Shown: positions 39,951 to 59,006 of the stretch, in pieces
Layout of the letters: each line of letters begins with the position of its first letter
How positions within the stretch are numbered: the first letter of the stretch is position 1
Assembly (NCBI GenBank): GCA_963575745.1
Contig: CAUYUJ010001425.1
Location: 170,902-234,901 of the forward strand
Length of the DNA stretch: 64,000 nt
Source: Prorocentrum cordatum
Taxonomy: Eukaryota > Sar > Dinophyceae > Prorocentrales > Prorocentraceae
Direction: 5' to 3'
The notes under the pieces: generated by a model
What the model saw: only the letters and a program-made list of their open reading frames with translations
Told to the model about the DNA's origin: nothing
Database searches by the model: none
Made by a program: the position numbers and the translations under genes

Positions 39951-40084
39951 GAGGGCAGGCCGCGCTCGCGCAAGGACATCGGGCGACGGCTGACGGCGCC
40001 GAGAGGCCTTGCACGCCCCAAAAACAATGGCTGCACAGCGCCGCCCTCCCCCACCTCCTCCGCATTGGGGCCGCCATCTCCAGA

Positions 40085-41068: not shown

Positions 41069-41070
41069 TC

Positions 41071-41278
41071 TGACATGACTCTGGTAGGTCATATTGCATC
41101 CAATTCCATGTCGAAGGAATACGATATGGGGTGTGGATGGATAAGATAGGCGAACATCGATGTATCGGTCTTTCCAGCACATAGCGAATACCAAGTCAGG
41201 TATCCGGGCAATTAGGGCGCGCGTGCCTTGAGCCATAAGGCAGCGACGCGCAGGCTATACTCCCGAATATCTATAACA
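41071..41278 (-). repeat. 3' LTR of the copia-like element
   Basis: On the sense (minus) strand it begins TGTTATAG and ends GTCATGTCA, giving the usual TG...CA ends. It aligns without gaps to 58803-58984 over 182 bp and more loosely for the last 25 bp. It contains the segment GCCTTATGGCTCAAG (sense). Confidence 0.85.
41227..41241 (-). other. spliced-leader-like segment in the 3' LTR
   Basis: Sense strand GCCTTATGGCTCAAG resembles the 3' part of the dinoflagellate spliced leader, GCCATTTTGGCTCAAG, with one missing A and one T-to-A change. The same 15-mer is in the other LTR. Confidence 0.35.
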
Positions 41279-41744
41279 TCCCCCAAAGAGCTACCCTCAA
41301 AGTCGGGAGGGGAGGAGACGGAGAGTAAAGCCGCGCGGTCGCTAGGCTCTCGACAGACGCGCAACTGTTTGCAAGGAAAACAATACACGCAGTCTGGTCA
41401 ACCACCAGACTGAAAGGCGATATTATTCGCCGGGGAGCTTCCTCGCAAAACTTTTCCACGCATGCACAGGACAGCCCCTTGGATAGACAAGGGCTATCGG
41501 CCCGGCTAGAGGTGCAGGCTATACCCCATCCAGGCAAAAAGTATTAAGGCAAAGAGCCTGAACCAAACTGAGCAGGCTCGCTGCCAAGCGTGAAAAGTAT
41601 GGCTCGTTTCCGAGCAAGCAAGAGGGCGCCTCCATAATAGGCGCCCGTGCTGGCAAATTGGACCGCAGGGGCAGCAAGGATTATCCCAGTGCGACCCTAC
41701 CTAGGAGTTGGGGCCCCTAGGGGGAAAAAAAAACATTAGTAGTA
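41279..41744 (-). other. 3' untranslated part of the copia-like element
   Basis: No coding potential. It holds one perfect hairpin of the element's family (41602-41615) and a decayed one just before it. An A-run lies at about 41726. The sense-strand purine run CTTTGGGGGA at 41279-41288, directly before the LTR, may serve as a polypurine tract. Confidence 0.5.
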
Positions 41745-42258
41745 ACAGTAAAGCTAAGCGAAAGCTAAGCTGCAGCTAAGCTACAGCTAAGCTAAAGCTC
41801 AGCTAAAGCTAAGCTAAAGCTAAAGCTAAGCTAAAGCTAAGCTGAAGCTAAGCTAAAGCTAAGCTAAAGCTAAGCTAACGCTAAGCTAAATATAAGTTAC
41901 AGCTAAGCTAAATATAAGCTTAAGCTAAGCTAAAGCTAAAGCTAGAACTAAGTTAAAGCTAAGCTAAAGCTAAGCTAACGCTAAGCTAACGCTAAGCTGA
42001 TGCTAAGCTAAAGCTAAGCCAACGCTAAACTAAAGCTCAGGTAAAAGCTAGCTAAAGTTAAGCTAAAGCTAAGCTGAAGCTAAGCTAAAACTAAGCTGAA
42101 GTTAAAGATATGCTAAAGCTAAACTAAAGCTGAGCTAAAGTTAAGCTAGAGCTAAGCTAAAGCTAAGCTAAAGCTACGCTAAAGCTAAGCTAAAGCTAAG
42201 GTAAAGCTAAGCTAAAGCTAAAGCTAAAGTTAAAGCTGAAAGCTAAAGCGAAAGCTCC
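41745..42258. repeat. (TAAGCTAAAGC)n satellite in the element's 3' region
   Basis: About 510 bp built from AGCTAA and AGCTA words, mostly an 11-bp unit TAAGCTAAAGC. AGCT, itself a palindrome, recurs every 5-6 bp. It is followed by a 20-bp direct duplication GGGGACTGGGGGAACCGC at 42264-42302. Confidence 0.95.
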
Positions 42259-42354
42259 CATGGGGACTGGGGGAACCGCGGGGCGGGGACTGGGGGAACC
42301 GCCCGGGGCGCTTTGCACTGCCCGGCCCCTTTCAGCTAAGAGAGTAAGAACCCT

Positions 42355-43072
42355 CTAGGCAGAGCCTAGGTAGGGAACAAACGAAAAATGATTCGACTTA
42401 GGCTTGGTTCTGTCCTCAGGGCCCCGAAAAGGAACAACCTGCTTCACGTCATACTTAAATGACTGGGTACCTGACATCACTTCCAGAAGCAGCTCCCGAT
42501 CGATACTCCCCTTTGTGTGACCGTCTGCGGTCATGTCCCTAGTGTCACACCACTGTACGTTATGCACTATACCTATATCAATGAGCTCACCATACCTATC
42601 CCAGCAAAGTACGTTCCGTCGGTATCTTGAGGTCTTTGCTGGATACTGATGTATATACAGACTCAGCGTCTATAGTAAGGGATACTTTGATAGCTAGGCC
42701 TCCAATTTCACGCATATCTCGCAGTTGCCGCGGGGCAAGGGCCCCAGCCTTGAGCTCGTGGAGGGTGATGAGCGTGGGATAGCATTCATCAAGATTACGC
42801 GCAGCTGCAAGTGCCTCAGCGGCATAGCTGGACCTCGCCTGCAGTCGGTTTGACTTGCATAGTCCGTCGCAAAGGTGAACGACGGATTTGTCTTCGGGCG
42901 AATTTCCTCGCCTTAATACGCTAGCCCCACGAATGCCGTTGCCCTTGGTTTCATCGTCCTCCTCCCCGGTGAGTTTCCGATACCCCAAGTCACTACGTAT
43001 GTCTACTTGACTCGTCGGTTTCATCCGAGGGAAGGTGATGCGTTTCGGGCTGCTGATCAGCTTTCGCGTCAC
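42355..43072 (-). pseudogene. copia RNase H domain, frameshifted
   Basis: Minus frame 43072-42596 begins in the connection after reverse transcriptase (MTRKLISSP...) and holds RNase H marks: SDLGYRKLTG (first Asp), SSYAAEALAAARNLDE (Glu helix) and TIDAESVY (Asp). The final CDTRDMTADGHTKG lies in a second frame, 42567-42355. A one-base shift separates them near 42590, and another joins this part to reverse transcriptase near 43080. The coding end at 42355 (terminal PYLGSA) is probably the end of the polyprotein. A near-perfect family hairpin lies at 42898-42911. Confidence 0.75.
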
Positions 43073-43077
43073 AGCAT

Positions 43078-44652
43078 TCAGTCGTCTGACTTGCGAGTTG
43101 GTGGGCTCTGGATCTTCTGGAGAGACACTACATACACTATGAGCCAGACTTGAGTAAGAAGGGCATAGGCGAGAGCTCCTCGCAGGCTAACGAACATGTC
43201 GATGATGAGTTTGGTAGCCTTGGCGTCTGCCGCCGCTCCCGTAAGTTCAGGACGTGTGATAGGACGTAGTTGTTTGATGTATTCGTCCTGGTCCATGGTC
43301 ACATCCCCTTGTTCATAGCTCGTGTAGCGGACGGCGCAGTTAGTGTAAGAATGTTTGTTGAGCTTGCATTTACCAAACACCTTTTCGTCACGTTGTACAT
43401 AACCATCTACGTTTTTCTCTAGGCCTGTCATATTGATATCGTCGACGTGTTTTGCTGTTAATAGATCCTGCCTAAATTCAAATTCGGGATCGTAGCTTGT
43501 CGGTGCAAGGCCTATAGCTCGAGTGGTCGTGAGAAGCTTGAGGGGGAACGCTCTTGGAGCGTCCTTCGTACCGGTTCCTGGCTTCAGGCACCTGAGGCAG
43601 TGTCGGCTTTCATCATAAGAAGAGAAGCCTGGAAGGGTGCGAAACACCTGGGCACTTCCTGGTGGAAGGGCAAAGCAAACCGTGCGAGTCTCCTCGCCGG
43701 TGTCATGAGCAAGTTCCTCATATGTCAGTCCTTTGAGGAAAGCTTTGTCAATGTCCATAGATGCTAAGATCCATCCTGGATGACACGCAGCTTCACTTGC
43801 CAGAGGCCTCTGGGACTGTCGGCGGGCAATTCCCGAGAAGTTTTCTACATCGAAAGTCTCCGTGTCCATTAATCCACGGAGGACAAGTCTAAGACGGATG
43901 GTTCTAACATTATCGGTGCCTACTTTCACAAACTTCCACTTGTATACGCATCTGGATGTCATAATGTTGGAAACTTTTGACAGTTCGTACATATCGAAGC
44001 ATCGGCTGTCAAGCCAAATCTTGAGTTCGGTGTATAAGGCTTCACTACCCTCTTTGGGATGTGCTGCTATGACGGCTTTGGTGAGTAGGTCGTCTTCCTT
44101 GACTACTACAGCACATTTAGCAGCCGATGATACGTATACTCTCATCGTTGCGACCATGTTTGGTTCGAGCTGTGTAAGTTGGGTCTGATCCAGCACGAGA
44201 TTTGCCATTTCTGGCGTAAAACATAACTCGGCATATGGGCCATGTTCATCACTGTCAAGAAAATAGCCCTCGTCAGATGTAGTCGAGCATAAAGAGACGA
44301 GACAAGGCTCATGTTGTTCAGGCTCGTTTCCGAGCGTCTCCGACACAACGGTATCTTCCTCGCCCACTGATGCTGAGACCAAGACACATTGGTCGGGCAG
44401 CATGGTCGTTGGGACGCAGTAGAGACAGTCGTCGACAACCGTCGTGTGATGAAGGTCCATACGCAACTCCTGGTACCACTCCTGCGTCATCATAGCCTCG
44501 ATGTCGTGTTCCTCGCATTTTCTCGTAGATTGTAGACAGGCGACCTTCACTGGGTGATGAAGCACCTGGGGTGTCTGGAGAAGGCCTGTCTCCAGGCTGG
44601 TCAGGTCCTTCAGACGGTGTGTCCAAGTGTTGATACTTGACAAGGTCGTCAT
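43078..44652 (-). pseudogene. copia reverse transcriptase
   Basis: A 524-codon minus frame. From about residue 235 it matches dinoflagellate copia reverse transcriptase: RCVYKWKFVKVG, RLRLVLRGLMD, RQSQRPLASEAACHPGW, motif A ASMDIDKAFLKGL, KPGTGTKDAPRAF, motif C TAKHVDDINMTG and FGKCKLNKHSYTNCAVRY. The catalytic Asp pair sits in HVDD rather than YVDD, which I believe is usual in this family. The first 230 residues are an acidic linker with the hairpin-encoded LGNEP motif (DNA 44322-44335). This is the longest uninterrupted part of the element. Its neighbours on both sides are in other frames. Confidence 0.8.
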
Positions 44653-45877
44653 GAAATCCTAGGGAAGGAGCTTGTGACGTCAGGCCCGAGTGAGTGCTAC
44701 CAGTGATTTGAGAGATGTTCAGGCCGCTGCCTACACACTCGAAGTAGTGGAAGGCTGGGTTAACATCGCTGTCGTAGTGGATCAGTGTAGACCCGGCGGC
44801 GTACTTAACCGAAGGTCGAGTGAGCACGCTCGCGGCCAATGTCACGGCTTCTACGCACTCAACTCGGAAATAGTTTCGCACGAAATACTGTAGTGCTGAG
44901 TGTACGCGCGGGTGGAACTTGCTGTCGTCGGAAAGATTGAGGTTTCCCTTGTAGTCTGGAATGTAGCCAAAGACTTTGGCAGGTTTCCCTGCACCAAGGT
45001 GTGCCACATACGTGAGGACGGTTTGCATGGCCATGTTGTCCATGCCAAGTTCCCTGGTGAGAAGGCATTCAATGTATAGCGTGTGGCGAGCATCATGATA
45101 CATTACAATTGCCTCACGCGATGCTGCCTTGACGACTACGTGTCCACGCTCAAGCACATTACGGATCAAAGGGATCGGGCCATTCCAGCCTCCATGGTCG
45201 TCCTTAGTGGCCGTGGGTCGGCGATAATCAACCAAGTCCCCAGCTGAGTATAGACGAGCACCATCTGGAGCCGTCTTAGCCCTGAGGGCACGATTCGTCT
45301 TCGCTACCGCCGTGGCTTGAGTTATTGCTTCCAGGCTGACTTCCCTCACGCGACGTTCGCGCTCGTGGCCTGACGTCTCGGGGCCCTTGGGGAAGTCAAG
45401 GGTGTCGAGGTCAGGAAGGAAAGAGGGCTGTCGCCCGGTGTGTGCTTGGTACGGCGATACTCCGTTGTAGAACGTGAAAGCGTTATTGGCGAAGATGCAT
45501 TCGGCTAGTACTCTGGTAAATACAATGGGGATGTTGTGCCTGTTCAGCTCTTCCTCGATCATGTGGAGAGTGCCTCTGAGAATGCCACTGCGTGACTCGA
45601 TCGAGGTTGCGTGCTGGCCAGGCGCTCGGATACGCAGTGTCGTACCACTATTCGCCATCATGGCCTTGGCAGTTTCATTATTGAGGGCACCTTCTCCATC
45701 TGAATACAATGCGTTGAAGGGTCCATGATGGGCGATCCAGCAGTAGCGGTAGGCGTCGAGTATGGCGTCCCGTTCTTTGTCTTTTGGCCTGCTGCCAGGC
45801 GAATACATCGGTCCATAATGTGGAATATGGTCCGTTTCTTGTAGAACATGAGATCTACTTCGCTTTCGCCAAGCCAA
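44318..45877 (-). pseudogene. copia integrase core and C-terminal region
   Basis: A 519-codon minus frame. Its start joins, through a one-base shift near 45795, the frame at 46500-45658. The core has SDGEGALNNETAK with the second catalytic Asp. About 33 residues later comes the Glu in HATSIESRSGILRGTLHMIEEEL, then TFYNGVSPYQAHTGRQPSFLPD, all typical of copia integrase (D-D-E). The first catalytic Asp is upstream in the other frame (VDLMFY or IMDRCIR). The C-terminal part has GARLYSAGDLVDYRR and a chromodomain-like patch RHTLYIECLLTREL. Past 44650 the frame overlaps the reverse-transcriptase frame and is probably out of phase. Confidence 0.75.
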
Positions 45878-46500
45878 TTTCCAGTGAGGCTCACGGAAGG
45901 TAGCGCAGACTTACCTGGGCGCTCCCATGCTCTACATTCCCGACAGGTGTCGCAGATTTCTTTTATCAGATTTAGTCGAACATTATCCAAACCTACCTTT
46001 TCTATGATCAGCCTCTTCTTGGGTTCCTTCGCATGATACCACCGTAGGTGCAATTTGCGGAGCTCCTTCTTGACTACATGAGGTTCATAACTACGGAGGT
46101 TTTGCAGACTATGTTGGATGTCAAATCTCGTCCAGTCAGGCAGTCGTGGAGCCCCCGAGCCGGTCGAGGCAAGAAGGTTCCTCGTGGCTCTCCGCAGTCG
46201 GTCTCCTTCGTCAACTGCATCTGGCGGTGGAAGTACACCTTGTAAGCGACCACGGCGGGCCGCTACCTGCGGCGATTCGCCCGAAGACGCGGGGGGCGCG
46301 TTTCTGCTCGAAGACGCGGAAGGCGTGTTTCCACGCTCGGGCGCGTCTCGCAGTATGTCATAACTGCTACCGCCAGATGCAGGATCAGCGTTCCCAAAGG
46401 CGCGCGGTCGCGGTGGCCTGGCGCGAGCACCTTGGCGGCCACCCGATGCCGAAGCTTGGCCCTCACCCGGCTTGGGCAAGGGTTCCCACCAAGCTGGCAC
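45658..46500 (-). pseudogene. copia integrase zinc-binding (HHCC) region and start of core
   Basis: Minus frame with LRKLHLRWYHAKEPKKR followed by ICDTCRECRAWERPGK: an H-X4-H ... C-X2-C arrangement (HHCC zinc site) typical of the pre-integrase domain. Then comes GNWLGESEVDLMFYKK with FHIMDRCIRLAAG carrying the first catalytic Asp. Upstream is a Pro/Arg/Ser-rich linker with a hairpin-encoded RGNTP (DNA 46323-46336). The frame is lost shortly after RLAAG. Confidence 0.75.
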
Positions 46501-46979
46501 AATGCGACCCTCTGGGTCATGTCGAGGTGATTATGAACACCCTTGCTTCTCGTAAGATCCCTCCGGCATGCAGGGCATGGCCAGTACACAGAGATGGAGC
46601 CATGATACTTACACTGTGTAGGATCTCTGTTGCGACTAGGACTGCCCTTTCGGACGTGATCGATACATGCTGGGCACGTGGCCACTTTTGGGATGATATG
46701 GTCACCGATGCGTCTCATACCTTCTCCTGGTTCAGCTTGATCAGGGAGGTCGGCAGGATAAGCATGGGCAGTTCGCGCAGGCGCGTCTCCGCGCGCATGG
46801 TCAATAGCTCTCGCCAGGTAGACGGCTTCCACAAAGGCAGACTGCAGTCGTCGAGTGTATGTTTGTGCCAGTGAAAGCTCCTTGTTGCTGTGCATGCACA
46901 TGCTGGCCGTTAACCTTGAGCCGCTCACATGTTGCCTCGTCGTTGCTGGTGATATCTGTCGGCTTCTTGATATAGTCAC
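46263..46979 (-). pseudogene. copia pol linker with Cys/His cluster
   Basis: Minus frame with VATCPACIDHVRKG, then TQCKYHGSI and WPCPACRRDLTR, a regularly spaced Cys/His set (two CX2C pairs plus CX2H) that would bind zinc. I recall comparable Cys-rich segments before integrase in dinoflagellate copia polyproteins, but cannot name a family. The Arg-rich tail is likely out of frame with the integrase part that follows. Confidence 0.4.
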
Positions 46980-47340
46980 CAGCCGTATCCCTTAAGTCCC
47001 GTCGCACATTGGTCGATGCGTGCGGTCGTAATGTGAAGTCGGTCGGCAAGTTCTTTCCATGGGGGAATATCATCCACCCATGTCCCTGGTCGACACATGT
47101 GGCCTTGTCTAAATTGCCTCCTGAGGAGAGACCTCTCGAGAAGGCAAGCTCTGAAATGCCACCCTCACCTCCACGCAGCTCCAACATATCCACGCAGTTG
47201 TTGTTGCCATAGCATAGAGTAGCCACTATACTAGATATGTCGGCGCGTGTGTCGGGCATAGTGGGGAGGGCAAGGAACAGGTCATATTCCTCGTCAGAGC
47301 TAATCAGCTCGACGGGGACGTCAGTGCTGAAGGTCGCCAT
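46801..47340 (-). pseudogene. methyltransferase-like module remnant in pol
   Basis: Minus frame with DMLELRGGEGGISELAFSRG, then LSSGGNLDKATCVD. The ELRGGEGGIS segment resembles the SAM-binding loop of DNA-methyltransferase-like proteins. Immediately after, another frame reads TWVDDIPPWKELADRL, and the original frame resumes DYIKKPTDITSN. I believe relatives have a longer stretch between these segments, so an internal deletion seems likely. Function is inferred from one motif only. Confidence 0.3.
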
Positions 47341-48252
47341 AAGATCCTGTCCGAGTCCTCACAAGTCGTCGCCGCAATCATCATTTCCATCTTCAACGTG
47401 CTTATTGATGCGGCGAGGCTTGATGCCTGCTTTCTTTTCGGCTTTAAGCCTTCCTTCTGTTTCATACGCGCCTCCGTAGGTAAGACTTGCTCGTCATGTT
47501 CACCGGTCGTTGTGCCCATCGTCGTTGATGAGTGGGTACCTGCAACAATCGCCAGAGTCGGGAGGGGGGAAGGACAGTCATCTATGAAGACGCGTCTAGG
47601 TTTCTTTGGTGAGTGAGCAGGCTCGTTGCCGAGCATGACCAATTCCTCGGGCTGCCAGTACATGCGTGTGCTGATGTTAGCAACCCCTTCGGGTAGCGGT
47701 GCATGCCAATCATATCCCGTCGGTTGATCGGCTATCGCGATATCCTGAATAACCGTGTTGGTATCCAGGTTAATCGTTACACGTCGGATAACATCGGACC
47801 ATGTCGGCCCCCCTATGTTGGTCGACACATAATAGTGTATGTTGTGATCCGTACGTGTGTAGGTATTCAAGTATACCGGCACGTTTCCGTGCGTAGTGTT
47901 GCCTTTCCCCAGGATCCGATCGTTGAGGTAACGAATGAGCGTGATGCGCGTCTGTGCTCTCCGTTCGGCATGTCGAACCGTTTGGCCGTGCCAATCCAAA
48001 CATGGTGTGGTATCACCTGTTTGCACGCACATGCCCATAATTTAGAGCTGATCGGTATTGATGTGGCTACCTGCATATATATATATATATATATATACCA
48101 CTTGGTGTATTGTCTTGAATATTAAATCTACGACCGAAAAGACACAACCGCATCCGTACTACCGTCAACTTAAGATCCTCCAGAGTACCACGTTTTAGAG
48201 ACAACTTCCAACCGTATCCTGGGGGGCCAAACGATATGACAATGATTATCAT
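47304..48252 (-). pseudogene. copia pol, unrecognised module with GPPGYGWK motif, frameshifted
   Basis: In sense order: ISFGPPGYGWKLSL then VRMRLCLFGRRF (48252-48100), an AT microsatellite, then VATSIPISSKLWACACKQ (48070-48010), then NIGGPTWSDVIRRVTINLDT and KKPRRVFIDDCPSPLP (48038-47304). Three frames are needed. Hairpins at 47880-47893 and 47621-47634 encode HGNVP and LGNEP. No enzymatic function is assigned. Confidence 0.4.
48075..48097. repeat. (AT)n microsatellite inside the pol module
   Basis: Eleven AT dinucleotides between codons for PSG and VATS. They encode alternating Tyr-Ile in one phase and shift the frame. Confidence 0.95.
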
Positions 48253-48637
48253 GCGGAGCTTCCTTGCCTTCGTCAGAAGGTTCTGAATGCGCGACCAGTG
48301 TGGGGCTACTCTTTTTACCGGGGGTCCTTACGTACCAGCTGACCCATATTAGAGCGTAGTCCTGACTAATCACCGCGCCCAGATACTCTGCGCCCACAGC
48401 TGTCATGAGCTCGTTGTGGGAAATGCGGTCACAGGTGTATCCTCGGGTGCGGAGGTCAGCGCAAGCTTCTCTCGCATCTTCGATAACGAAAGCTCTTTTC
48501 TTATGGCAGGTTGCCCCGCTGTCCATGTTACCCCCTGGCCTCTCGGCTATCAGGCAAAGGCGACGAGGGGGCAGCGTCGCCCTGCCATCTTCAAGATAAA
48601 GAAGATGCGCTTGCCACATCTGCCAGCATCTCAGCAT
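48170..48637 (-). pseudogene. copia pol, unrecognised segment after protease
   Basis: A 155-codon minus frame with EDAREACADLRTRGYTCD, then GAEYLGAVISQDYALIWVSW and YVRTPGKKSS. It leads into the GPPGYGWK segment in another frame. A near-perfect hairpin (one G-U pair) lies at 48506-48519. Confidence 0.35.
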
Positions 48638-48677
48638 CTCTCAAATGCTGGAGCTCTGCGCTGCAGCGCGCGGTGGC

Positions 48678-50225
48678 CTAAGAGGCGGATTGCTCCGCAA
48701 ACGTGGCCAGCATTAACGGCTTATCCGTCTGCTGCTTCAGGAGGCCCTTCGACCTTGCGTCGTTGACCGTCTGCAGCTCATGATTCGTGTACCCCATCAC
48801 TATATTCCTGCGTGTCCTCGCAGCGTCCATGGGTGCAACTCCGCCATGCTGGGCCAGTGTCCTGGCTACGAAGCAATCGAACGTCTCCAGATCGTCGGTG
48901 TTGTCGCATCTCATCGTCGCCTTGGCGAGTATCGCGAGCAGCCCCTGGGGCAGGCTTCCCTGAAATTGTTGGCGCTCTTGCGCGGGGGATGGCTCGCCCG
49001 TCAGCACCGTCTGGAACGACGTCGTACTCGTGCTTGAGGCGGGTTGCCCCGCGGCTCCGAATCGATCACACCTGATTGACAGATGTCCTGACGGCAACTT
49101 AGTTGTAGGCATGATCTTGGAGCCCTCGGGGAGTTCCATCTTGACCTGTCCCTTTCCAGGGAATATCAGCTTCTCCTGGCCTCGTTCGAGCACAATAATG
49201 GTGCGCTTGTCCTGCAGACTGTCGAGGCCCAGGATAGCAGGCAGGTCCTTGCCGCAGCCCGACACAAGTTTAGTCTTGTACGAGTCGAGCTGGGTCGAGC
49301 CCTGGCACTCGCAGGCAATGCTGAAAGTGCCCACGGCATCGGCTGGGGCCGACCCTTCGCCAACCCCGTTTATGTTAAATCGAGAACGGGGTTCAAACGC
49401 ACAAAGGCGATTATGTGCCTCAGCAGCCTGGGCGAATTTGCGGCTCGTGTTCTCTCCCATTATTTTGATATTCGAGTCCACGTCCATGAGGATCGAAATT
49501 CCACCATCCTCCAGAAACGTCCTGCTCGGCTGCTTGATGCGCACCGTCTCTGATGCGCCGGCTGCGCTGTCTGGCGGGTTTCCCCGCATCTCGGTCGCAC
49601 CTCCTGGCGGGTTTTCCCGCATCTCGGTCGTACCTCCTGGCGGGTTTCTCCGCGTCGTGCTGGCACTTGGCCTTCCTGCGGCCATGCGTGCCAGGTCGAC
49701 GTACTGGAAGTACGACACGTCCTGGGCGTGAACGCTCTGTTCCCCCCGCCAATTAGCATACTCATCGCGTATGCTGGCATACTGTTCACGAGTGGTGCGT
49801 CGTGTCAGCGTCAGGTATGAATGAAGGGCAACGTCTTGTAATCCCTCATTCGTAATGTGATCCCTGTACTGCAACCACTCGTCGAACTCAGTATTCGTGG
49901 CTGAGAGTTCGATGGCCCTGGCTGCTGTTGCCGCCGTCGCCACTGCAGAATCTGAGAGGTCAAACGACTCGCTCTCAGGATTGCCGGCGCCCAGCATGAA
50001 CGCGGTGTGCGCGTTGTCCATCTGGGCCTGGAAGTGGCGAACACGCAGCTCACGAAGCTGTTCAGGGCCCAGTGGCAGCTCGGCCCCACCCCCGCCCTGG
50101 GGCGACATAGGAGGAGCCACCTGCCCGATTCCAGGCTCGCAATGAGTTGGAGGGATCGGCACAGGTGGGGCATTGGGCAGGTTTCCCTGCTGAGGCGCTG
50201 TCATCGGGATAAGTTGGTCGACATA
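48678..50225 (-). pseudogene. copia aspartic protease region
   Basis: Open minus frame continuous in phase with the RING module upstream, separated by a TGA at 50226-50228. It begins with a Pro-rich segment and QQGNLP (hairpin 50177-50190), passes three tandem ENPPGG/RGNPP motifs, then the protease: GISILMDVDSNIKIMGENT, RFNINGVGEG, DLPAILGLDSLQDKR and LPSGHLSIRCDRF. The order (D-x-x-S active-site strand, GVG, PAILGLDSL, SGH) fits the copia-type protease of dinoflagellates. The residue after the catalytic Asp-Val reads Asp where I would expect Gly, a one-base change that would probably inactivate it. Confidence 0.65.
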
Positions 50226-51626
50226 TCACGTCGCCATCGGCGCCCTCACCTCCTCCGGCGGGGCCCCCCGCTGCTGGGGCAGCGCTGCCTGCCTGTCCAG
50301 CGCGCTGGCCGTCATTGCCTCCACCATGCCCCTCAGCCCCCGCAGCTCCCTCGCTGCCCGTTCAGGAGCCTGAGTGACGGAGCCGGCCCATGGGAGCGAC
50401 GACGCTATGATGCCTGGCGCTCGGCAGATATCACGCACAGGTTGCTGAGGATCTCCTTCTCGCTGGTTCGCAACATGGCCCACCGCATTCGAGTTCCAGC
50501 ACTCCTCGTGGAACAGATGGTTGCACCTCTAACGGTAGATGCTCTCCCCAGGCATAACCTCCTCGGGGCATACCGCACAGGTGTCTTCCATCCTAGTATA
50601 GATCTCCACGTCTGCCGCCCTAGGACACACTCGCCTCTGCCGCTCCAGAACTGTTTCAGAGTCCAGGAAGGCAGCTGGAGGATCTCCTGCGGGCGCCTGT
50701 GCCTCCGGCGCTGTGGCAGCCACTGCTGGAGCAGCTGCCGCTGTGGAAGCTGCGGGCGACACAGCTGGCGAGTTTCCTCGCATGGGTGAGCCCCTGCTCC
50801 TCATGACCTCAGGCTCTGCTGCGCGTTCTTGGTCACGTACACTCTGCACCGCCTGCGGGCGTCTGAAACACGCCTGTTGAGTGTGGTGCGTCTGCCTGAT
50901 GTAATCTGGCACTCCCCTACTGCCTGATGATATCAAATGGGCAGTAGGCTAGACGGCCACATCTGGCATCGTCGGCGCATGCATGAATGCCATGTGCGGG
51001 TACATGGACTGGTCGCTGCAGCGCACATTCGTGAGGCTATGAAACTGATCCGCCGTCTCGCGAACAAATCTGTTCGGGACTCTGGACCCGTCTGGGTACA
51101 GTGGCGGACCCATTGGAGCAGGTGCTGGCCTCTGGCCTTGGGCCATGCTCGGATGAGCATTGAAGGCCGGGATAAAGGCTCGTTGCCGAGCAGGGTCGAA
51201 TGGATTCGGGCCCTCCGGCTCCCAAGACCAGGCTGGCCTCCACCTCTGACCGCTCGGGCGGGGCAGGTTGCGGCTCTGCGCCTGTTGCATCGCGGCCGCC
51301 GCCCGTGTGCGGTTGTCATCAGGCACTCCAGTAGCGATGTTACGGTCGGCTAGCGGTTGGTGCTGCGCCGGAGTGCCAGGCAGGTCCCCCCGCAAACTCG
51401 ATGGCGCGCCCGGTGGCATCATGCCCAAAAGAGCTGCACCATGATCAGCTCTGGCCGCAGCAATTCGCCCCATGAGAGTGCCATTCGGGGCAGAACGCCC
51501 AAGAGTCCCGAATGGAGACTGTACTGGCGTTGACGCTACTGGTGTCATGCCCCTCGGCGTGTGCACGCTATTCCGGGCTCCCTGGCATCTGCTCGAATCG
51601 GGCTGGCTCTCCGAAGATGCGGCCAC
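50226..51626 (-). pseudogene. RING-H2 finger module within the copia polyprotein
   Basis: One minus frame runs from 51626 into the protease part, broken by TAG at 50949-50951, TAG at 50529-50531 and TGA at 50226-50228. After a Pro/Ala-rich linker it has DTCAVCPEEVMPGESIYR, the TAG, then RCNHLFHEECWN: CX2C, about 14 residues, then CXHX2HX2C, the RING-H2 spacing. The last pair is degraded: only ICRAPG remains of an expected CPxCRAPG. RING-H2 domains bind zinc and usually recruit ubiquitin-conjugating enzymes. In-frame hairpin RGNSP at 50768-50781; the hairpin at 51178-51191 is read in a different phase. Confidence 0.6.
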
Positions 51627-53090
51627 ATGTTTGCGGGCCCCCCTGCGGCTCGGGCATATCGCTCCTGATTCCGTTGGCGGGCAGGTTTCCCTGCACTGCC
51701 GGGCGGTTGCGTGTCACCATCGCGGACATAGCCCCCTGACCTGCGGCCCAGGGGCCCCGTTGGTAAAGTCTGTCCGCTAGCTGTTCCACCTGCTCAGGAT
51801 TCAGAGCCGCCGCGATCTGATCAAGATCTGAGGTGCTGAGGACCTGCCAAGATATGGCACTAGGCCCTTGGCTTGGAGCACGGCTTGGAGCCGCACTCCC
51901 CGCCTCGCTCTCGTTGATCATGAGGATATGGTGGGTCTCGGGCTGGTTCTCCAGCGCTGCTGGGTGGTAGTGGTCTCCCAGCTCTCTCCGGCAGCAAGCC
52001 GTGGGAGGCCCATCATCCCGCCAGAGAGTCATCCTATACCCAATGCTGGCATTGCCCACCGTCCTCCATTTGCTTGGCGCAGTCATCTCGGTAGTGGAAC
52101 AGCGTGCACGGCGACTGCCCAGGTAGCGTGGGGTCCGCCACTGTTTACCTGTGGAGATCTCCTCCACATAGTTGATATAGCACGGCTCAATGATGCCCTT
52201 GACCCCTTCAGATAGCAACGCGCCGTTGTCGGACCAGCAGAACTCGATTCCGCCCATCAAGGCCTGGTGCCAGTCAATCGAGATGAGGATCTCGGAATCA
52301 GGGTCCCATCCACTCTGCATGTCACGACGCTGAAGCGTTGGAACAAAGTGGATGTGTGAACGACCAGTTCCTTAATTCTTGGTGTTGCGCTCTCTGCGGC
52401 AGGAGAGGCCTATCCCCACGATGCCCTCGAGGGCTGCCCACCGCGCGCCGTGAGTGGCGACATCAGGGCACGGGGCCGGTCTCCCGGCAGGGCTGTCGCG
52501 CAGTACAATGTACTTGTACAACGACCAAGGGGCCTTGAGCGTCCACGAATGCCCCTGCGAAACACGGATGAACAAATCGGCTGTGCCGGAATCTCGCATC
52601 AAGACCTTGACCTGTAACCGCTGCTTCTCCTCTCCGTCCGACTCGCAAACGCGGACGATCGCCATCATGATTGCAGCCATCTGATCGACCGTCCTACCGT
52701 AGAAGGTCTCGGCGATGATGTTGGCATCATCGCACTTCGGGCAGTGCCCGTCGCGCCGCATACCGTCGCTCCAGGGGAACTCGTGCACGAGCTCGCGGAG
52801 GTTGATCCATCCATCGTGGTCATCGAACGCCCTCAGCCCCCACGCTGGATTGTTCGATCTGTCGGGCGCGTGCCTACAGATCTTGCTAAGGCACTTACTG
52901 AGCTGCTTGAGTTTGTAGTTCGTGCTAGGAATGATGTTCTTTTGTCGGCAGCTCGCCATAAGTGCCTCATCAACAGAACGCATCGGTGGAAGCTTCCGTA
53001 GAGCACGTCGATCGTTGATCAACTCCTGGTTCCCGCTCGCGAAGGAGGCATCGCCTGGGCGCGCAACTTGTCTTCTGGCGGGCCCCCCCG
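51568..53090 (-). pseudogene. Tpt1/KptA-type RNA 2'-phosphotransferase module within the copia polyprotein
   Basis: The minus frame from about 53090 to 51568 is broken only by a TAA at 52372-52374. Visible Tpt1/KptA marks in order: KQLSKCLSKICRHAPD (catalytic Arg-His), FDDHDGWINLRELV (winged-helix GW motif), DLFIRVSQGHSW (Arg and QGHS), ATHGARWAALEGIVGIGL, GRSHIHFVP (R-x-H-I-H, just after the stop) and SEILISIDWHQALMGGIEF with WSDNGALLSEG. The four residues of the usual Arg-His-Arg-Arg set are all present. Tpt1 enzymes remove the 2'-phosphate left at RNA splice junctions using NAD+. A tail with QGNLP (hairpin 51681-51694) follows, then a frame change to the RING part. An upstream frameshift near 53050 joins it to the preceding module. 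Confidence 0.75.
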
Positions 53091-54544
53091 CAATGGAGCC
53101 TCTGCCGCTGACGAGGCTGCAGCTCCTGATGATGAGGATGCTGCGGCTGCAGTGCCTGGCGGGTTTCCCGTCGGCGTCTCTCGGCTGGCGCTGCTCCTGA
53201 TCTTAGGCGCCCAGGTACCCCGAGGCAAAACGCCCTCCTCGGACGCCTTGGAGCGCGTCGCCACTGGCGAGGCCGGCGTAGGGGCATACCCTGTACGCTC
53301 GAACGCCTCGGCCTTGCTGGCGATGGAGCCACTCCGGCTAGGCTGGCGCCTGCGGATCTCCAGGGAGTCCTGAGGCTGTTGCCTGGGGTCAGGTCTCTGC
53401 GCAGGCATTGCTAGAGTCGATGACTTCGGCACTCCGGAGAGGGGCCTCCCCATCTGCACATCGAACTCGAGCTCCTCTGAGCGGGTAGAAGGTTTCTTCT
53501 GTCTTTCGCCCGAAGGCGTCCTGTATTCACGAGTCTCGCTGTTAGCTTTCGGGGTCGCCGGTGGCTTCTTTGCTTCGGCTTGCAACTCCAACAGCATTCG
53601 GCGAGTTGCCTCGCGGCTGCGCTCTTCTGCCAACCGCTTGCGATCTGCCTCTGCTGCGACTCGTTGAATGTCCTGCTCGTCGTCGCTCGTCATCTCGCAC
53701 GTTTGAGCCTGACTGGAGACACCAGGCGGGTTTCCCCGCGGAGATCGAGTCTCCTGAGCAGGAGGATCGTTGAGGCGCATGGCCTCGAGACGGCTATTGA
53801 CCGCATCAATTTCCTCTTGGGCCATGGGCACAAGAGGTGGATGACCCTGCTTTGCAGGAGTGCGGCCCCTGTTAGGGCTCAAGACGTCACTGAGGCCGAC
53901 AAGGCAGCCAGGTCTGTGTTCCTGAAACTCCTGCGAGCACGGACCGAAGGCCGCGTTGGGCCTGTAGCGGCGGCGCTCCTCGATGATGGCTCTCAGCTGT
54001 CTCCGCACTGCCTCTTTATCGGGACGTCGAATGTTCGTCGCGAGCTGGTAGCCACCCCGTATGGACCTGCCTTGGGCGTCCCTGTAAATCGGATTGCCCT
54101 GCGCAATGGCAGAGCGCTCGCCCGTTTTGCGCCTAGGGTCATTGCATTCGAGCAACTGACCTCCCCGTCGAGCAGCATGCTCTGATGGAGCTGCCTGCCG
54201 CCATTCACGTGGGAGCCGTCCTTGGGGGTACGGATCGCCCCTAAGACGCGGATGTGAGCGAGACCTCCTGGCCTGTTCATCGGACAGTGCTGCTGACATA
54301 GCGGCGTGGTTTCCTGAGTAGGCGTAGGCAACACATCCTGGACAGGCCGGTCTCCCTGCTGACTGGAGTCAGGCATGATGGGCTCTTGTGCGGATGGTTG
54401 TGCGTCGGACTCGTCTGGGTCGAAGTCCACCTCCTCGTCTTCGCCATTGACGTCCATCATGAGGATGGTGGTCTCGTCCTCGCACAATCCACAGCCGTCT
54501 TCATCTTCAACTTCTGAAGTAGGATTGCCAATGACAAGGGTCAT
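53019..54544 (-). pseudogene. copia polyprotein, charged linker module
   Basis: Two overlapping minus frames (54544-53993 and 54299-53019) that look like one frameshifted sequence. It has an acidic start (DGCGLCEDETTILMMDVNG), a basic segment (REAVRRQLRAIIEERRR-like), an Ala/Glu/Arg helix likely to coil (QRVAAEADRKRLAEERSREA) and a Ser/Ala/Pro tail. Hairpins at 53726-53739, 53078-53091 and a decayed one at 53159-53172 encode RGNPP-like motifs. No family recognised. Confidence 0.4.
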
Positions 54545-55540
54545 TGCCCAGTCGGGACAGGCAGGTTTCCCTGCTGTGGAGGCGTCTGAGCACCGCTAGG
54601 CTGTCCCGGCGTCGGCGGCGCGGCGGTCGGACCAGGCTCGTTGCCGAGCACGGCGGGGGCCTCAGGCTGATCATAGTCATGAGAAGGCTGCCCGATGATG
54701 TTGCGCATGGCAGTATGGTTTGGCTGTAGCCCCACCGCCTGGAGACCCAATCCTGGCGGAGGAGGCGCCTGTTCACGCATCGCGATAGCCCTCTGAAGGG
54801 TTTGGCGCCAGCGCCGCTTTGCATACCATACGCGCCGCTGCACGTCATCAGGGAGCACGCTGTCGATGAGAGTGAAGGCCGCCAGCAGCAAGTCCGAGTC
54901 GTCACAAACATCGGAGTCTTGCAGCATCATGTGGCCGCTCTCAACGCTCTGTTGACTATACGGATACTCTTCAGCCTGAGCGGCATGCATCTGCATGAGG
55001 GTCTGCAGCACCGGACATGGTCCGCACTCACCCGGCGCGAGCATACCAGGCGGCTCGCGAAGATTGCCCGGCACGCCCACGGCGAAGGCCTGAGCCTCCA
55101 GTTCCTCCAATTCGCAATAATTTGGCGGATACACTGGAGTAGGCCCTTTCCCAGGCAAAGGGTCAGATTGCTGTCGAAGGTTGCGCTCGACCTCCGAAGG
55201 TGAGGCCTCGACAGTGACGTCCTCGTCGCTGCTATCGAAAGCCGTGATGTTGTTTGGATTGCCGAACGTCCAGTCAAATAATGAAAGGGGCTGGTTTCCC
55301 AGCGTTCCATTATCCACAGGCGTGAGCTCAATGGCTCCGACGTTGAACCTGCGGAGGTACTCGAAGTAGTACGCGTAGAGCCCGCGGCCGTCGGCTTCGA
55401 TCTCGCCCAGCGTGTCCATGTTGCTAACCCAAGTGAACATATCGTAGCACCCCGCAATTGCGGATAAGTGTGAGGGGGCGGGCGCGGGCGACGCGGGCGT
55501 TGTCGAGCCGGCGGACCTCGTGGCCCCCACCTTCCTTGTC
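54541..55540 (-). pseudogene. copia polyprotein, unrecognised acidic module after Gag
   Basis: Minus frame with YDMFTWVSNMDTLGEIEADG, then YAYYFEYLRRFNVGAIELTP, FDSSDEDVTVEASPSE, CELEELEAQAF and YAKRRWRQTLQRAIAM. It ends QQGNLPVPTGQ at a TGA at 54541. Hairpins lie at 55290-55303, 54636-54649 and 54561-54574. Its upstream end is lost in a CCT array. Confidence 0.4.
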
Positions 55541-55548
55541 GATGGCGT

Positions 55549-55905
55549 TCTCCTCCTCCTCCTCCTCCTCCTCCTCCTCCTCCTCCTCCTCCTCCTCGTC
55601 CTCGTCCTCGTCCTCGTCCTCATCGTCATCGTCATCATCCTCCCCCACCTCGTCCTCCTCCTCTTCCTCCTCCTCCTCTTTTTCCTCGCCCTCCCTCTCC
55701 ACCCCTCGTCCTTTCATCATCGTCCTCCCATTGTCGTCCTCCCCCTCATCGGCCTCCATCATCGTCTTCTCCCCCCCCTCCTCGTCCTCCTCCTCCCCGT
55801 CCTCCCCCTCCTCCCCCTCCTCGCCCCCCTGTTCCTCCTCCTTGTTTTCCACAGTCTCCTTGCATCCTCTCTTCTTCCGCGTTCTCCTCGTCCCCTGTTT
55901 ACTCC
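55549..55905. repeat. (CCT)n compound microsatellite inside the element
   Basis: CTC/CCT triplets with GTC, ATC and TTC variants. It interrupts the polyprotein between Gag and the acidic module. Confidence 0.95.
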
Positions 55906-56094
55906 TCCTGCCTCCCCCTCTTTTCCCGAGAAAACTGCAACGCAATCTGTTGTTCCACTTTATGCTCCCAGCCTTCTCTGATCAAGGCAACTCGCCAAAG
56001 TTGCTGGGCGGGTTGGTGTGGATGCGCGGGGCTTGAAGAGGTCCTTGCGGGCTCAGACGGCATGCAAAAATCCGCCGCCGCGTTTGTGCGGCAT

Positions 56095-56520
56095 TGGTTT
56101 GTACCCTGAACGTGGTTTGGGTCGCGGGTGGGCCGCGGGTTCTCCACCTCCACCTGGAAGGACTGCAAGAGCAGCCCGCCGCAGGCGCCAAACAAATTTG
56201 TTTGCACACTGAACGCGGTTTGGGTCGCGGGTGGGCCGCGGGTTCTCCACCGGGAACGAATGCAAAAGATGCCCGCCGCAGGCGCCGAAAAATGGGGTTT
56301 GCACCCTGAACGTGGTCGCGGGTGGGCCGCGGGCTCTCCACCTGAAACGAATGCAGAAGATGCCCGCCGCAGGCGCCGAAAAATGTGGTTTGTACCTTGA
56401 ACGCGGTTTGGGTCGCGGGTTGGTCGCGAGTTGGTCACGGGGTGGGTCGCGGGCTCTCCACCTGGAAGGAATGCAAAAAGAAACCCGCCGCGGGCGCCGA
56501 AAATGGCGGTTTCTACCTTG
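56095..56520 (+). repeat. tandem repeat of about 95-110 bp, four copies
   Basis: Units share GGTTTGTACCCTGAACGTGG, TTTGGGTCGCGGGTGGGCCG, CGGGTTCTCCACCTGGAA and GCCCGCCGCAGGCGCCGAAA. It lies inside the retroelement between the CCT array and the GTGGGTCGCGG array. Confidence 0.9.
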
Positions 56521-56534
56521 AACGTGGTTTGGGT

Positions 56535-56770
56535 CGAAGGTGGGTCGCGGGTGGGTCGCGGGGAGGGTCGCGGGTGGGTCGCGGGTGGGTCGCGCGGGTG
56601 GGTCGCGGGTGGGTCGCGGGGTGGGCCGTGGGTCGCGGGGTGGGTCGCGGGGTGGGTCGCGGGGTGGGTCGCGGGGTGGGTCGCGGGTGGGTCGCGGGTG
56701 GGTCGCGGGTGGGTCGCGGGGTGGGTCGCGGGTTGGGTCGCGGGTGGGTCGCGGGGCAGGTTGCGGGTGG
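56535..56770 (+). repeat. (GTGGGTCGCGG)n minisatellite
   Basis: About 20 units of 11-12 bp. The unit also occurs inside each copy of the neighbouring 100-bp repeat, from which this array probably expanded. Confidence 0.95.
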
Positions 56771-56780
56771 AACGACGACA

Positions 56781-56795
56781 GCAAACAACAACAAC

Positions 56796-56840
<45 letters not shown>

Positions 56841-56885
56841 CCAACAACAACAACAACAACAACAACAACAAACCACAACAACGAC
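56781..56885. repeat. (CAA)n microsatellite
   Basis: About 100 bp of CAA triplets with single-base breaks. Confidence 0.95.
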
Positions 56886-56929
56886 AACGAGAATCCGCAC
56901 CGCGGAATTCCACTTCAGCCACGCACCCA

Positions 56930-57569
56930 GGGACAGTGAATGACCGTTCGGCCCCCTCACTCTGATATGTTCCACAGCCTCGAACTCTTGGAGGCTAAGA
57001 TACTCAATAGCAGGTTCACTTGAGCCCAAATGGACTTCGGACGTGCTGCCCTTTCCATTCCCTTTGACTGGACAGCCCTTCACAATATGATCTGCGCTGT
57101 CACATCCATGGCACTTCAAGACCTGGCCGTCTCTACCTCGCGGGTTTCCCCGCCCACCTTTGCCTTTGCCTGAGGCTTCCCCACGGCCTTTTCCACAACC
57201 TTTTCCCCCGAACAATATCTCATCATACGGATCATCTAGAAGCCTCTGGAGGAAAGCCGCGATGCCTCGTCCGTTCAACCTTCGGCGGCCCCTTTTGCCC
57301 TTGCCTTTACCTTTGAAGCTCCTCCTTATCCCCCTCCTAACACGACGCACTGGTTTTCTTGTAAACCTCCTCCACCTACGCTTAGCTTGTTGTAGTGACC
57401 AAAATAGATGCTCGGCTCGCTGATTACCACCTTCCATGTGCATGATATCTGACCAGTCTAGTGGTTCGATGCCGTCTGACGATATCGCGTCGGCGTCGGT
57501 GCCTGAGTCGAAGTCGTCGTTTCCTAGGTAGGTGGACGCACCGTCGTTTAGGGGGTCGCTTCTCCCCAT
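56930..57569 (-). pseudogene. Gag C-terminal part with CCHC zinc knuckle
   Basis: Minus frame with LDWSDIMHMEGGNQ, AEHLFWSLQQAKRRWRRFT, KPVRRVRRGIRRSF and KGKGKGKRGRRR (basic tract), then CHGCDSADHIVKGC, a canonical CX2CX4HX4C nucleic-acid-binding knuckle. A hairpin at 57140-57153 encodes RGNPR just before the knuckle. The frame runs into the tandem-repeat block at about 56900, where coding similarity stops. Confidence 0.75.
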
Positions 57570-58117
57570 AGAGAGCGGTGAGGCTGAGGTACTCTAGGAG
57601 GAGGGCTGGTTGCCCAGCTTGGTTGTGATCGACCCCCTGCTAGTAGGGCAGTAGATTCACCCGGATCATCGGCCCAAATGTTTGTGGGCCCGTTGCCGGG
57701 CTGAGCTTCAGAGGTTAAAGTAATATAGAAAGTTCCACTGCCAGTTCCCCTTCCCCTTCCAAACACTGATCCTACGTTGCCAGGAGACCGTTCTGACAAG
57801 TGGCCTATCGAGCGCATTCTCTCACGCAGTTATTCATACTGTTGTTGTGTGCGGGGCATTTGGTGGTTGAGTGGCTGTAAGAGTTGCATGGCTCGCTCGC
57901 TGCCAACGCCTAGGGCGCGGAATAGGATAGTCGTAAGTAGCTGGAAGTTGGGAAGGTCAAAGCCCACTGACTGTGCCTCAAGACGGGCCATTTCGAACCG
58001 GGTAAGGGTTACATCGATTCGTTCTCCGTGAAGCACATGGAAGTCGATGAGCTGTGTGCCGGAGGTGAGTTGGCGCTCATCCTCCAGGCGTTCGAACTTC
58101 ATGCTTAGGAGGAGCAT
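57548..58117 (-). pseudogene. Gag middle part, one in-frame stop
   Basis: Minus frame with KFERLEDERQLTSGTQLIDF, HGERIDVTLTRFEMARLEAQ, then LPNFQLLTTILFRALGV, the capsid-like helices seen in copia Gag. TAA at 57830-57832, then the same frame continues RMRSIGHLSERSPGN. A frame change joins it to the zinc-knuckle part near 57560. Hairpins are at 57605-57618 (off-frame) and 57688-57701 (PGN). Confidence 0.7.
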
Positions 58118-58125
58118 GATGTATG

Positions 58126-58786
58126 TTACTGGGTCGGGTGGACACCGTCGATGTCCGCGCCATAGTTTATGATGTCAGGTGGTACCCTCATGGCGAGTGT
58201 CCTCGCGAGGCCGCCTAAGCCGCGTTGTATGGGGGCTGCTTGGGCTTGTGGTGTCATGCGTCCACTCGTGACGTTTAGCCACGCGTTGACTTCATATACG
58301 TACTCGCGAAAAGGTACGTTGCCTTGAGGGCCCCAGTATGGGCCATGCGTTTGCCCATCGGTGCTATTATCTCCTCGGCGCATGTGTCCGATTGCCGCTC
58401 CCAGCGCAAACCATATAACGGCGACGATAACCAACCCTAGGCTGTGGAGGTATGGGTGGTTATCGGGCGCGTTGCCGCGCTGGGGCGGGGATAGTGGCGC
58501 CTTGTCAAGTCTACGAGGCGCTTTATCTTGCGGGTTTCCCCGCCTGCGCTTCATGTGCTGCGCTTTCGGCTCGTTGCCGAGCGGTTGGTGGTTGCGTAGT
58601 GATGAAGCGTATATGGTACCAATGTTGTTGTCTAGACGTCGTGCCTCTCGTGTTGCTTCTTGCTCTCGAACTGATCCTCGTAAATGTTGGTGGAGTGGTG
58701 GCGCAGGGTAGAGAGTGGTCAGGAGGATCGTGCCCGGTAGCGTGAGGATAAGAAGAGCAAGAGATGACCACGCGAAGGTGCGGCCA
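58126..58786 (-). pseudogene. Gag N-terminal part with two hydrophobic segments
   Basis: Minus frame open from within the LTR (a Met at 58824 lies in the LTR, so the true start is uncertain) to 58126. Hydrophobic stretches LALLILTLPGTILLTTLY and LGLVIVAVIWFALGAAIG could span a membrane, unusual ahead of Gag. Then YVYEVNAWLNVTSGRMTPQA and RGLGGLARTLAMRVPPDIIN match the start of dinoflagellate copia Gag. The stop at 58126 results from a one-base loss: the next frame supplies the expected DPVTY continuation. Hairpins lie at 58569-58582, 58530-58543 and 58467-58480. Confidence 0.6.
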
Positions 58787-58798
58787 GGTCCGCTACCA
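58787..58798 (-). other. primer-binding site (initiator-Met-like tRNA)
   Basis: Sense strand TGGTAGCGGACC starts 4 nt after the 5' LTR end (TTTCA-GACT). It is complementary to a tRNA 3' end ...GGTCCGCTACCA. The T-A before CCA implies the A1-U72 pair characteristic of eukaryotic initiator tRNA-Met, the usual copia primer. No dinoflagellate tRNA was compared. Confidence 0.6.
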
Positions 58799-58802
58799 AG
58801 TC

Positions 58803-59006
58803 TGAAATAACTCTGGTGGGTCATATTGCATCAAATTCCATGTCGAAGGAATACGATATGGGGTGTGGATGGATAAGATAAGAGAAGATCGATGTATCGG
58901 TCTTTCCAGCACATAGCGAATACCAAGTCACGTATCCGGGCTGATAGGGCGCGCGTGCCTTGAGCCATAAGGCAGCGACGCGCAGGCTACACACCGATTA
59001 TTACCC
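58803..59006 (-). repeat. 5' LTR of the copia-like element
   Basis: Direct repeat of 41071-41278. The sense 5' end is diverged (GGGTAATAATCGG where the other copy reads TGTTATAGATATTCGG); the 3' end reads TTATTTCA. The segment from 58803 to 58984 aligns without gaps. Confidence 0.85.
58959..58973 (-). other. spliced-leader-like segment in the 5' LTR
   Basis: Same 15-mer as at 41227-41241, about 35 nt into the sense strand of the LTR. Confidence 0.35.

Follow-up and report, generated by a model that had tools for sequence, protein, structure and literature searches.

A series of covarying GNRA-tetraloop hairpins along the sense strand of a copia-like retrotransposon of Prorocentrum cordatum, candidate docking sites for an element-encoded protein

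A stretch of 64,000 nucleotides from the dinoflagellate Prorocentrum cordatum (assembly GCA_963575745.1, contig CAUYUJ010001425.1, positions 170,902 to 234,901; in the following called the window) contains a degenerate Ty1/copia-like long terminal repeat (LTR) retrotransposon of 17,929 bp on the minus strand (41067-58995), in which an earlier note had described a dispersed family of small hairpins with GNRA tetraloops. We were interested whether this family is real, to which molecule it belongs and what it may serve. The hairpins were confirmed and are somewhat more pronounced than had been stated; they lie, as proposed, inside this one retrotransposon and on its sense strand.

All matches to GC..GGNRAC..GC (GCNNGGNRACNNGC in sequence form) were collected from both strands of the whole window, irrespective of pairing. 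The sense strand of the element gave 30 such scaffold matches, 27 with perfect Watson-Crick stems, two with one G-U pair and one mismatched, so that the family stands and its former size of about 24 sites was a slight undercount. The 27 perfect GNRA hairpins use 11 stems instead of ten, GCCTG being the eleventh, and four of them carry the GAGA loop that had been noticed once. No match was detected on the antisense strand of the element, and both strands of the window outside it (46 kb) gave two matches with one mismatched pair each and no perfect GNRA hairpin, in agreement with the claimed confinement to the element. When any four-base loop was accepted (GC-NN-G-(4)-C-NN-GC), 34 perfect hairpins were found on the minus strand of the element, 27 of them GNRA, with the loops GAAA (14), GCAA (9), GAGA (4) and GACA (2) and one each of AAAA, AGAA, GCAG, GGGG and GGGC; the six perfect scaffolds outside the element have loops other than GNRA. 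Dinucleotide shuffling of the element (300 shuffles) led to a mean of 0.01 perfect sites and a maximum of 1, far below the 27 observed, and to a mean of 0.40 and a maximum of 3 when pairing was ignored. A viral background consisted of 240 loci (2.08 Mb, both strands) that had been fetched with two 15-nt hairpin patterns and picked for holding one such hairpin each; among the matches listed, these loci hold 251 perfect hairpins, 11 in excess of one per locus, and no single strand of a locus has more than two. Rfam gave no match at gathering scores within the window. Under looser rules, 23 sites showed the full GMAA consensus, 11 had one defect (8 in the loop, 3 in the stem) and 10 had two, compared with two-defect backgrounds of 3 on the antisense strand and of 2 and 5 per strand, scaled to length, in the rest of the window. 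A set of 37 sites was picked by hand from the 30 scaffold matches and seven near-consensus sites, eight two-defect sites being excluded as likely background.

All sites are on the minus strand, and those of the scaffold scan are given here by their two arms. The stem GCTCG/CGAGC occurs with GCAA at 58569-58582, 54636-54649, 51178-51191 and 47621-47634 and with GAAA at 44322-44335 and 41602-41615, the last downstream of the pol open reading frames (ORFs). GCGGG/CCCGC carries GAAA at 58530-58543, 57140-57153, 53726-53739 and 49574-49587 and GCAA at 49039-49052 (encoding AGQPA), and GCAGG/CCTGC carries GAAA at 54561-54574, 51681-51694, 50177-50190 (QGNLP) and 44979-44992 (AGKPA). GCGAG/CTCGC was found with GCAA (53601-53614), GAAA (50768-50781) and GAGA (43684-43697, inside conserved reverse transcriptase), GCGCG/CGCGC with GCAA (58467-58480) and GAGA (46781-46794), and GCTGG/CCAGC with GCAA (57605-57618) and GAAA (55290-55303). 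The stems seen once are GCCCG/CGGGC with GCAA (57688-57701), GCCGG/CCGGC with GAGA (52475-52488, inside the KptA-like domain), GCACG/CGTGC with GAAA (47879-47892), GCGTG/CACGC with GAAA (46323-46336) and GCCTG/CAGGC with GAGA (44584-44597, PGDRP in one frame). The G-U variants are GCGGG/CCTGC with GGGA (51380-51393) and with GCAA (48506-48519), and the mismatched variant is GCAGG/CCGGC with GAGA (54346-54359). The looser scan located loop variants at 58193-58206 (GCGAG/CTCGC, GACA), 49607-49620 (GCGGG/CCCGC, AAAA), 48853-48866 (GCCAG/CTGGC, GACA) and 45787-45800 (GCCTG/CAGGC, GCAG), closing-pair changes at 49640-49653 (GCGGA/CCCGC, GAAA) and 48685-48698 (GCGGA/TCCGC, GCAA), and a one-defect hairpin at 42898-42911 (GCGAG/TTCGC, GAAA). 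The perfect hairpin at 49574-49587 and the variants at 49607-49620 and 49640-49653 belong to three tandem 33-nt units (49571-49669), each with the hairpin or a decayed form of it (GAAA, AAAA loop, A-C closing mismatch).

A C follows 24 of the 27 GNRA hairpins, whereas 29% would be expected after GC (P about 1e-10), and in 0 of these 24 could it form a sixth pair with a preceding G (26% expected; P about 8e-4). Four-base loops on stems of at least 5 bp reach 3.97 per kb in the element compared with 2.08 outside, and stems of at least 6 bp are not enriched (0.92 and 0.99 per kb); among loops of 3 to 6 bases, enrichment over the rest of the window is limited to loop 4 with stem 5. Therefore, from the trailing C, the missing sixth pair and this enrichment, the unit is a 5-bp GNRA hairpin plus an unpaired 3' C. 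The proposed joint change of the arms was borne out by a paired-column test on 30 sites (26 distinct rows, 500 shuffles), which works at the level of the motif, the sites being paralogous places in one RNA. Paired cells made up 99.2% compared with 77.8% after shuffling, the covariation score was 0.522 compared with 0.092 (at most 0.077 when slid), and 25 double-change cells were counted compared with 7.1, 0 of 500 shuffles being as high in each case. Two further measures, pairs with a double change (493/500) and pair types (225/500), were not above shuffles because two of the five pairs vary; both middle pairs each show GC, CG, AU and UA. A computed local fold of the 37 sites gave a mean pairing probability of 0.64, compared with 0.003 for scrambled 14-mers in place. 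By longest open frame, the 37 sites are read in three phases (23, 9 and 5 sites; homology check for some), and therefore no single peptide explains the hairpins. A conserved peptide as their cause was ruled out on this ground, arm matching being unnecessary for any peptide. In the flanks, with codon phase uncontrolled, C stands seven bases before the hairpin at 23 of the 37 sites and G is the third base after it at 19.

Relatives of the element were compared as proteins (76 retrieved), with arms inferred from codons; the counts are not independent, as some of the proteins closely resemble one another. At 50177-50190 the residues QGNLP of the window share columns with RGNTP of P0065 and RGDAP of P0066. 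The arms are CAG/CTG in the window DNA, and the codons imply CGT/ACG in P0065 and CGC/GCG in P0066, with a GNAA or GAGA loop, so that window and relatives imply three different matched stems at one place. Likewise, ARQRA of P0066 and ARRRA of P0067 share columns with implied loops GCAA and GAGA, and AGQPA at 49039-49052 is AGKPA in P0065 and AGQPA in both P0066 and P0067. At 44979-44992, P0074 has AGQPA for the AGKPA of the window and others have non-hairpin residues such as AGKAP, PGKTP or VGRPP, and in the linker holding PGDRP (44584-44597) P0009 has RGNTP and P0011 PGNRI in different columns. A perfect hairpin read in the phase used most often encodes [LPQHR]-G-[N/D]-x-P, the first residue constraining x. 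Residues that match the arms were found in 13 of 21 xG[ND]yP peptides of the 76 relatives compared with 6.4 after shuffling (0 of 10,000 as high), and in 35 of 170 compared with 15.8 when P was not required. All of RGNAP, RGNTP and HGNVP in P0065 and of RGDAP (three times) and RGDTP in P0066 match, and in the A-x-[KQR]-y-A phase 10 of 12 peptides fit a perfect hairpin (AGQPA, AGKPA, AGRPA, ARQRA, ARRRA; an uncontrolled count). At the protein level the relatives thus show matching signs; viral contigs and prokaryote genome contigs gave no confirmed match to their DNA.

Residue gaps opposite the hairpin were sought at seven sites (sense starts 43697, 44992, 42911, 48866, 48698, 49052 and 50190). 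At 43697 (TGEETR in conserved reverse transcriptase, consensus TGEKER) 18 of 18 relatives have no gap, and none is present within the hairpin codons of 3 of 3 relatives at 48866, 48698 and 49052 or in the two relatives that reach 50190. Seven relatives align at 44992, six without a gap and P0070 short by one residue. Between RRG and HL around 42911, three of 12 relatives have the nine residues of the window, five have one more, P0019 three fewer and three many more. A five-residue gap was found at none of the seven sites apart from 44979-44992 in P0072, the sole exception, where a six-column gap is followed by unrelated sequence and the protein stops being alignable. As the relatives have residues opposite the hairpins, these were written into existing codons by substitution and not inserted, at least at these seven sites. 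Linkers do carry longer inserts with GN or GD in some relatives.

What such a series could serve is suggested by its constraints. A cis-acting hairpin of one standard form, 5'-GCNNG-GNRA-CNNGC-C-3', would recur along the genomic RNA, on average once per 0.5 kb or so, beginning close to the 5' LTR and ending close to the 3' LTR. Selection at the RNA level would keep the outer GC pairs, the G-C that closes the GNRA loop, the loop itself (GAAA, GCAA or GAGA), the 5-bp length and the unpaired 3' C, leaving the two middle pairs free to change jointly. Because of the strand bias, the GNRA rule, the fixed helix length and the free middle pairs, we infer a protein reading an RNA hairpin. The acting molecule would be the RNA and the binding protein an element-encoded one, the zinc-knuckle nucleocapsid portion of Gag being the most likely candidate; by docking on the hairpins it would select the element's own RNA and condense it into particles, like dispersed packaging signals of RNA viruses. 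A CCHC zinc knuckle (CHGCDSADHIVKGC; 57072-57113, minus strand), found by motif scan, is encoded upstream in the element and counts for this assignment; its ORF gave no match in a Pfam scan. A zinc-knuckle Gag is thus the candidate for the simplest reader, and among the roles named in the earlier note recognition by Gag for packaging is the best candidate. Many sites sharing a motif are present, 27 of them consensus plus variants over 17 kb, and packaging of the RNA is assumed from the nature of LTR elements. That the series provides RNA docking sites for an element protein, most likely the Gag nucleocapsid, in the service of packaging has in our judgement about an even chance of being correct. 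More tentatively, and rather doubtful as a whole, the lineage may have standardised one 15-nt hairpin, with some 37 copies tiled over a 17-kb genomic RNA by compensated substitutions in any phase, as the address for a dedicated hairpin-binding Gag.

Several observations weigh against packaging by such a protein. Internal deletions of up to 5 kb have no significant effect in yeast Ty1 if the proteins are provided in trans (PMC4974528). Pairing probability in the computed fold is below 0.35 at 11 of the 37 sites and 0.06 or less at eight. The arms of the relatives are known from codons, the relatives being proteins, and 8 of the 21 xG[ND]yP peptides lack the match. The same test also exceeds its shuffles when N/D is replaced by other residues (12 of 115 compared with 5.1; p 0.0003), therefore part of the peptide signal is not specific to residues coding for GNRA; this excess may reflect other loops or a general bias. 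The 64 reverse transcriptase relatives, taken by themselves, show no excess of GN (51 observed, 50.7 expected), and 13 of 51 match compared with 7.0 after shuffling, with a maximum of 15 in 2000 shuffles.

The main rival is that the same RNA hairpins are read by another factor of host or element that acts in export from the nucleus, in the stability or translation of the RNA, or in escape from silencing. Every sequence observation in favour of an RNA hairpin fits this equally well, sequence does not separate it from packaging, and the KptA/Tpt1-like RNA enzyme (PF01885) encoded by the element indicates RNA-handling functions beyond Gag; however, dozens of copies over the whole length exceed the usual needs of export or translation, and we regard this explanation as unlikely, though deserving attention. 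Quite improbable is a mutational origin, in which template switching during reverse transcription copies one arm onto the other and pairing arises without function. It needs no protein and accounts for compensatory change with few intermediates (3 of 30 imperfect), but leaves the fixed outer GC pairs, the closing G-C, the GNRA loop, the 5-bp length and the 3' C unexplained, and neither loops of 3, 5 or 6 nor longer stems are enriched. Double changes by template switching could nevertheless add to the arm matching.

The earlier note had also considered a self-spreading miniature palindrome, here a 15-nt mobile unit inserted repeatedly into the element. A length of 15 nt including the trailing C preserves the reading frame, the 33-nt tandem triplet is a case of local duplication, longer inserts with GN or GD occur in the loop after the RRG motif of P0003, P0006 and P0012, and P0066 has extra GD-bearing sequence beside 50177-50190. 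Set against this are the 11 differing stems, the single orientation and the lack of any perfect GNRA copy in the adjacent 46 kb, while in protein-level alignments the hairpin replaces existing codons at the seven sites, with residues opposite it in the relatives except P0072 at 44979-44992. The mobile palindrome was rejected for want of a clean insertion in the protein alignments and of a shared sequence spreading elsewhere in the window, and we consider it very improbable. Docking of the GNRA loops into tetraloop receptors elsewhere in the RNA, by which the RNA would be compacted, appears barely plausible. GNRA is the classic docking loop, yet halves of the canonical 11-nt GAAA receptor are few in the 17.9 kb (TATGG 16, CCTAAG 3; uncontrolled counts), giving no visible support for the tertiary contacts suggested before, and fixed outer GC pairs and a 3' C are unnecessary for docking. 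Finally, GC-rich coding repeats might yield such palindromes by chance, the element having 57% GC (the window 59.7%, with zero ambiguous bases), but this is refuted by the shuffles and by the 11 perfect hairpins beyond the fetching one per locus among the matches listed for the viral loci, and its probability is negligible.

The assignment of the element to Ty1/copia follows from terminal direct repeats of 197 nt with 93% identity, the 5' LTR at 58799-58995 and the 3' LTR at 41067-41263 in the sense direction, and from a copia-type reverse transcriptase with the integrase upstream of it. The sense order is zinc knuckle, KptA/Tpt1-like domain, RING-like motif, gag-pro, integrase, copia reverse transcriptase and RNase H side, all on the minus strand. 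The reverse transcriptase ORF (43081-44658) matches RVT_2 (PF07727) with E 9.5e-5, below the Pfam cut-off, and has 64 relatives, 29 of which bear a precomputed PF07727 annotation; those named are Polarella glacialis (45%) and Pyramimonas transcriptome entries (56% and 54%). Its RNase H-side continuation in another frame (42599-43186) was recognised by alignment with relatives. The integrase extends over two frames (44321-46530, as 45661-46530 and 44321-45910), with HHCC/DDE seen by eye; the pieces have no Pfam match, nine relatives were found for the second, and the integrase relatives map upstream of the reverse transcriptase ORF. The ORF of the gag-pro region (48681-50225) has the relatives P0065-P0067 (n=3, 37-38% identity) and a protease-like DVDSNIKIMG...LPAILGLD, likewise seen by eye. 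A RING-like motif, C.H.FH..C, was found by motif scan at 50499-50525, and P0065 has the RING Pfam domains PF13639, PF17123 and PF13445 ahead of gag-pro. The KptA/Tpt1-like domain lies in one frame as two pieces (52375-53202 and 51571-52371; PF01885, E 3.8e-9 and 6.9e-9) separated by an in-frame stop codon. This RNA 2'-phosphotransferase is an unusual cargo for a retrotransposon, with one hairpin within the domain; the top-ranked literature results held nothing relevant on KptA as such cargo. The frame breaks and the in-frame stop indicate a dead copy. LTRs 7% apart make some decay since insertion likely, and the defect counts would fit about 37 good hairpins in an active ancestor.

Directly after the 5' LTR, where a primer binding site would lie, stands TGGTAGCGGACC. 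Each LTR contains TGGCTCAAG (sense, 58967 and 41235), with GTAGCC shortly upstream in the 5' LTR. These correspond to the two ends of the spliced leader of dinoflagellates and may be left over from a trans-spliced RNA; a full spliced-leader match was not found, the best having 6 of 21 positions mismatched and lying elsewhere than the LTR pieces. Tandem arrays within the element, an 11-nt array (41705-42244), a CCT/GAG microsatellite (55506-55881) and a GGGTCGCG-type array (56515-56780), contain no hairpins of the GNRA family. Just beyond the element, imperfect repeats around AGGCGACTGATCGTCGCGA occupy 40080-40477 on the plus strand, and the ten long ORFs outside it gave no Pfam match above the cut-off.

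Among known systems, the packaging signals of single-stranded RNA viruses and hepatitis B virus (HBV) are the nearest precedent, as both they and the element have many stem-loops sharing a motif along an RNA. In phage MS2, satellite tobacco necrosis virus and HBV, many stem-loops along the packaged RNA share a common recognition motif in varying surroundings, and similar mechanisms may, according to the same authors, occur with repurposed Gag-like proteins (PMC6281560); the loop motif in HBV pregenomic RNA is RGAG (PMC7612645). The scaffold of the element is far stricter (length, outer pairs, closing pair, 3' C) and lies in an LTR retrotransposon, and its contact with a protein is a proposal. 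The element resembles Ty1/copia in its LTRs, RVT_2 and integrase before reverse transcriptase, with the protease-like and zinc-knuckle parts assigned by motif only, and differs in its 17.9 kb, the KptA-like and RING-like extra genes and the hairpin series. Minimal Ty1 RNA requires only the two ends (PMC4974528), therefore an internal hairpin series would be a new variant. The main text of a paper on gene capture by dinoflagellate retrotransposons does not contain the term 'hairpin' (PMC5890265). Short palindromes in many copies are known as REP (repetitive extragenic palindromic) elements (PMC3733652). Unlike these, the Rickettsia palindromes and the GC clusters, all of them inserted near-identical copies, the hairpins of the element have differing stems and a fixed orientation, and no clean empty site was seen in the aligned proteins. 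The Rickettsia palindromic elements and mitochondrial GC clusters are likewise short and present in many copies, some of them in frame inside proteins. Another comparable unit, the boxB of phage lambda, is a GC-rich hairpin of about 15 nt that is recognised by a protein and whose stem has 5 bp and whose loop is GNRA-like; it differs in its pentaloop, its few copies and its role in transcription antitermination.

Among the top-ranked results of the open-access literature, neither a description of such a hairpin series nor an earlier report of an LTR retrotransposon with a dispersed packaging code was found. Beyond yeast and retroviruses, little is known about how LTR retrotransposons choose their own RNA, and near-uniform, covarying hairpins along one element are an unusually clean candidate, readable from sequence, for an RNA-selection code. 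Counts of the hairpin are possible in any related element, and swapped stems would directly distinguish RNA pairing from protein coding. If packaging is indeed their function, the hairpins would provide an LTR retrotransposon with a dispersed code for packaging, and packaging specificity would be readable from sequence alone.

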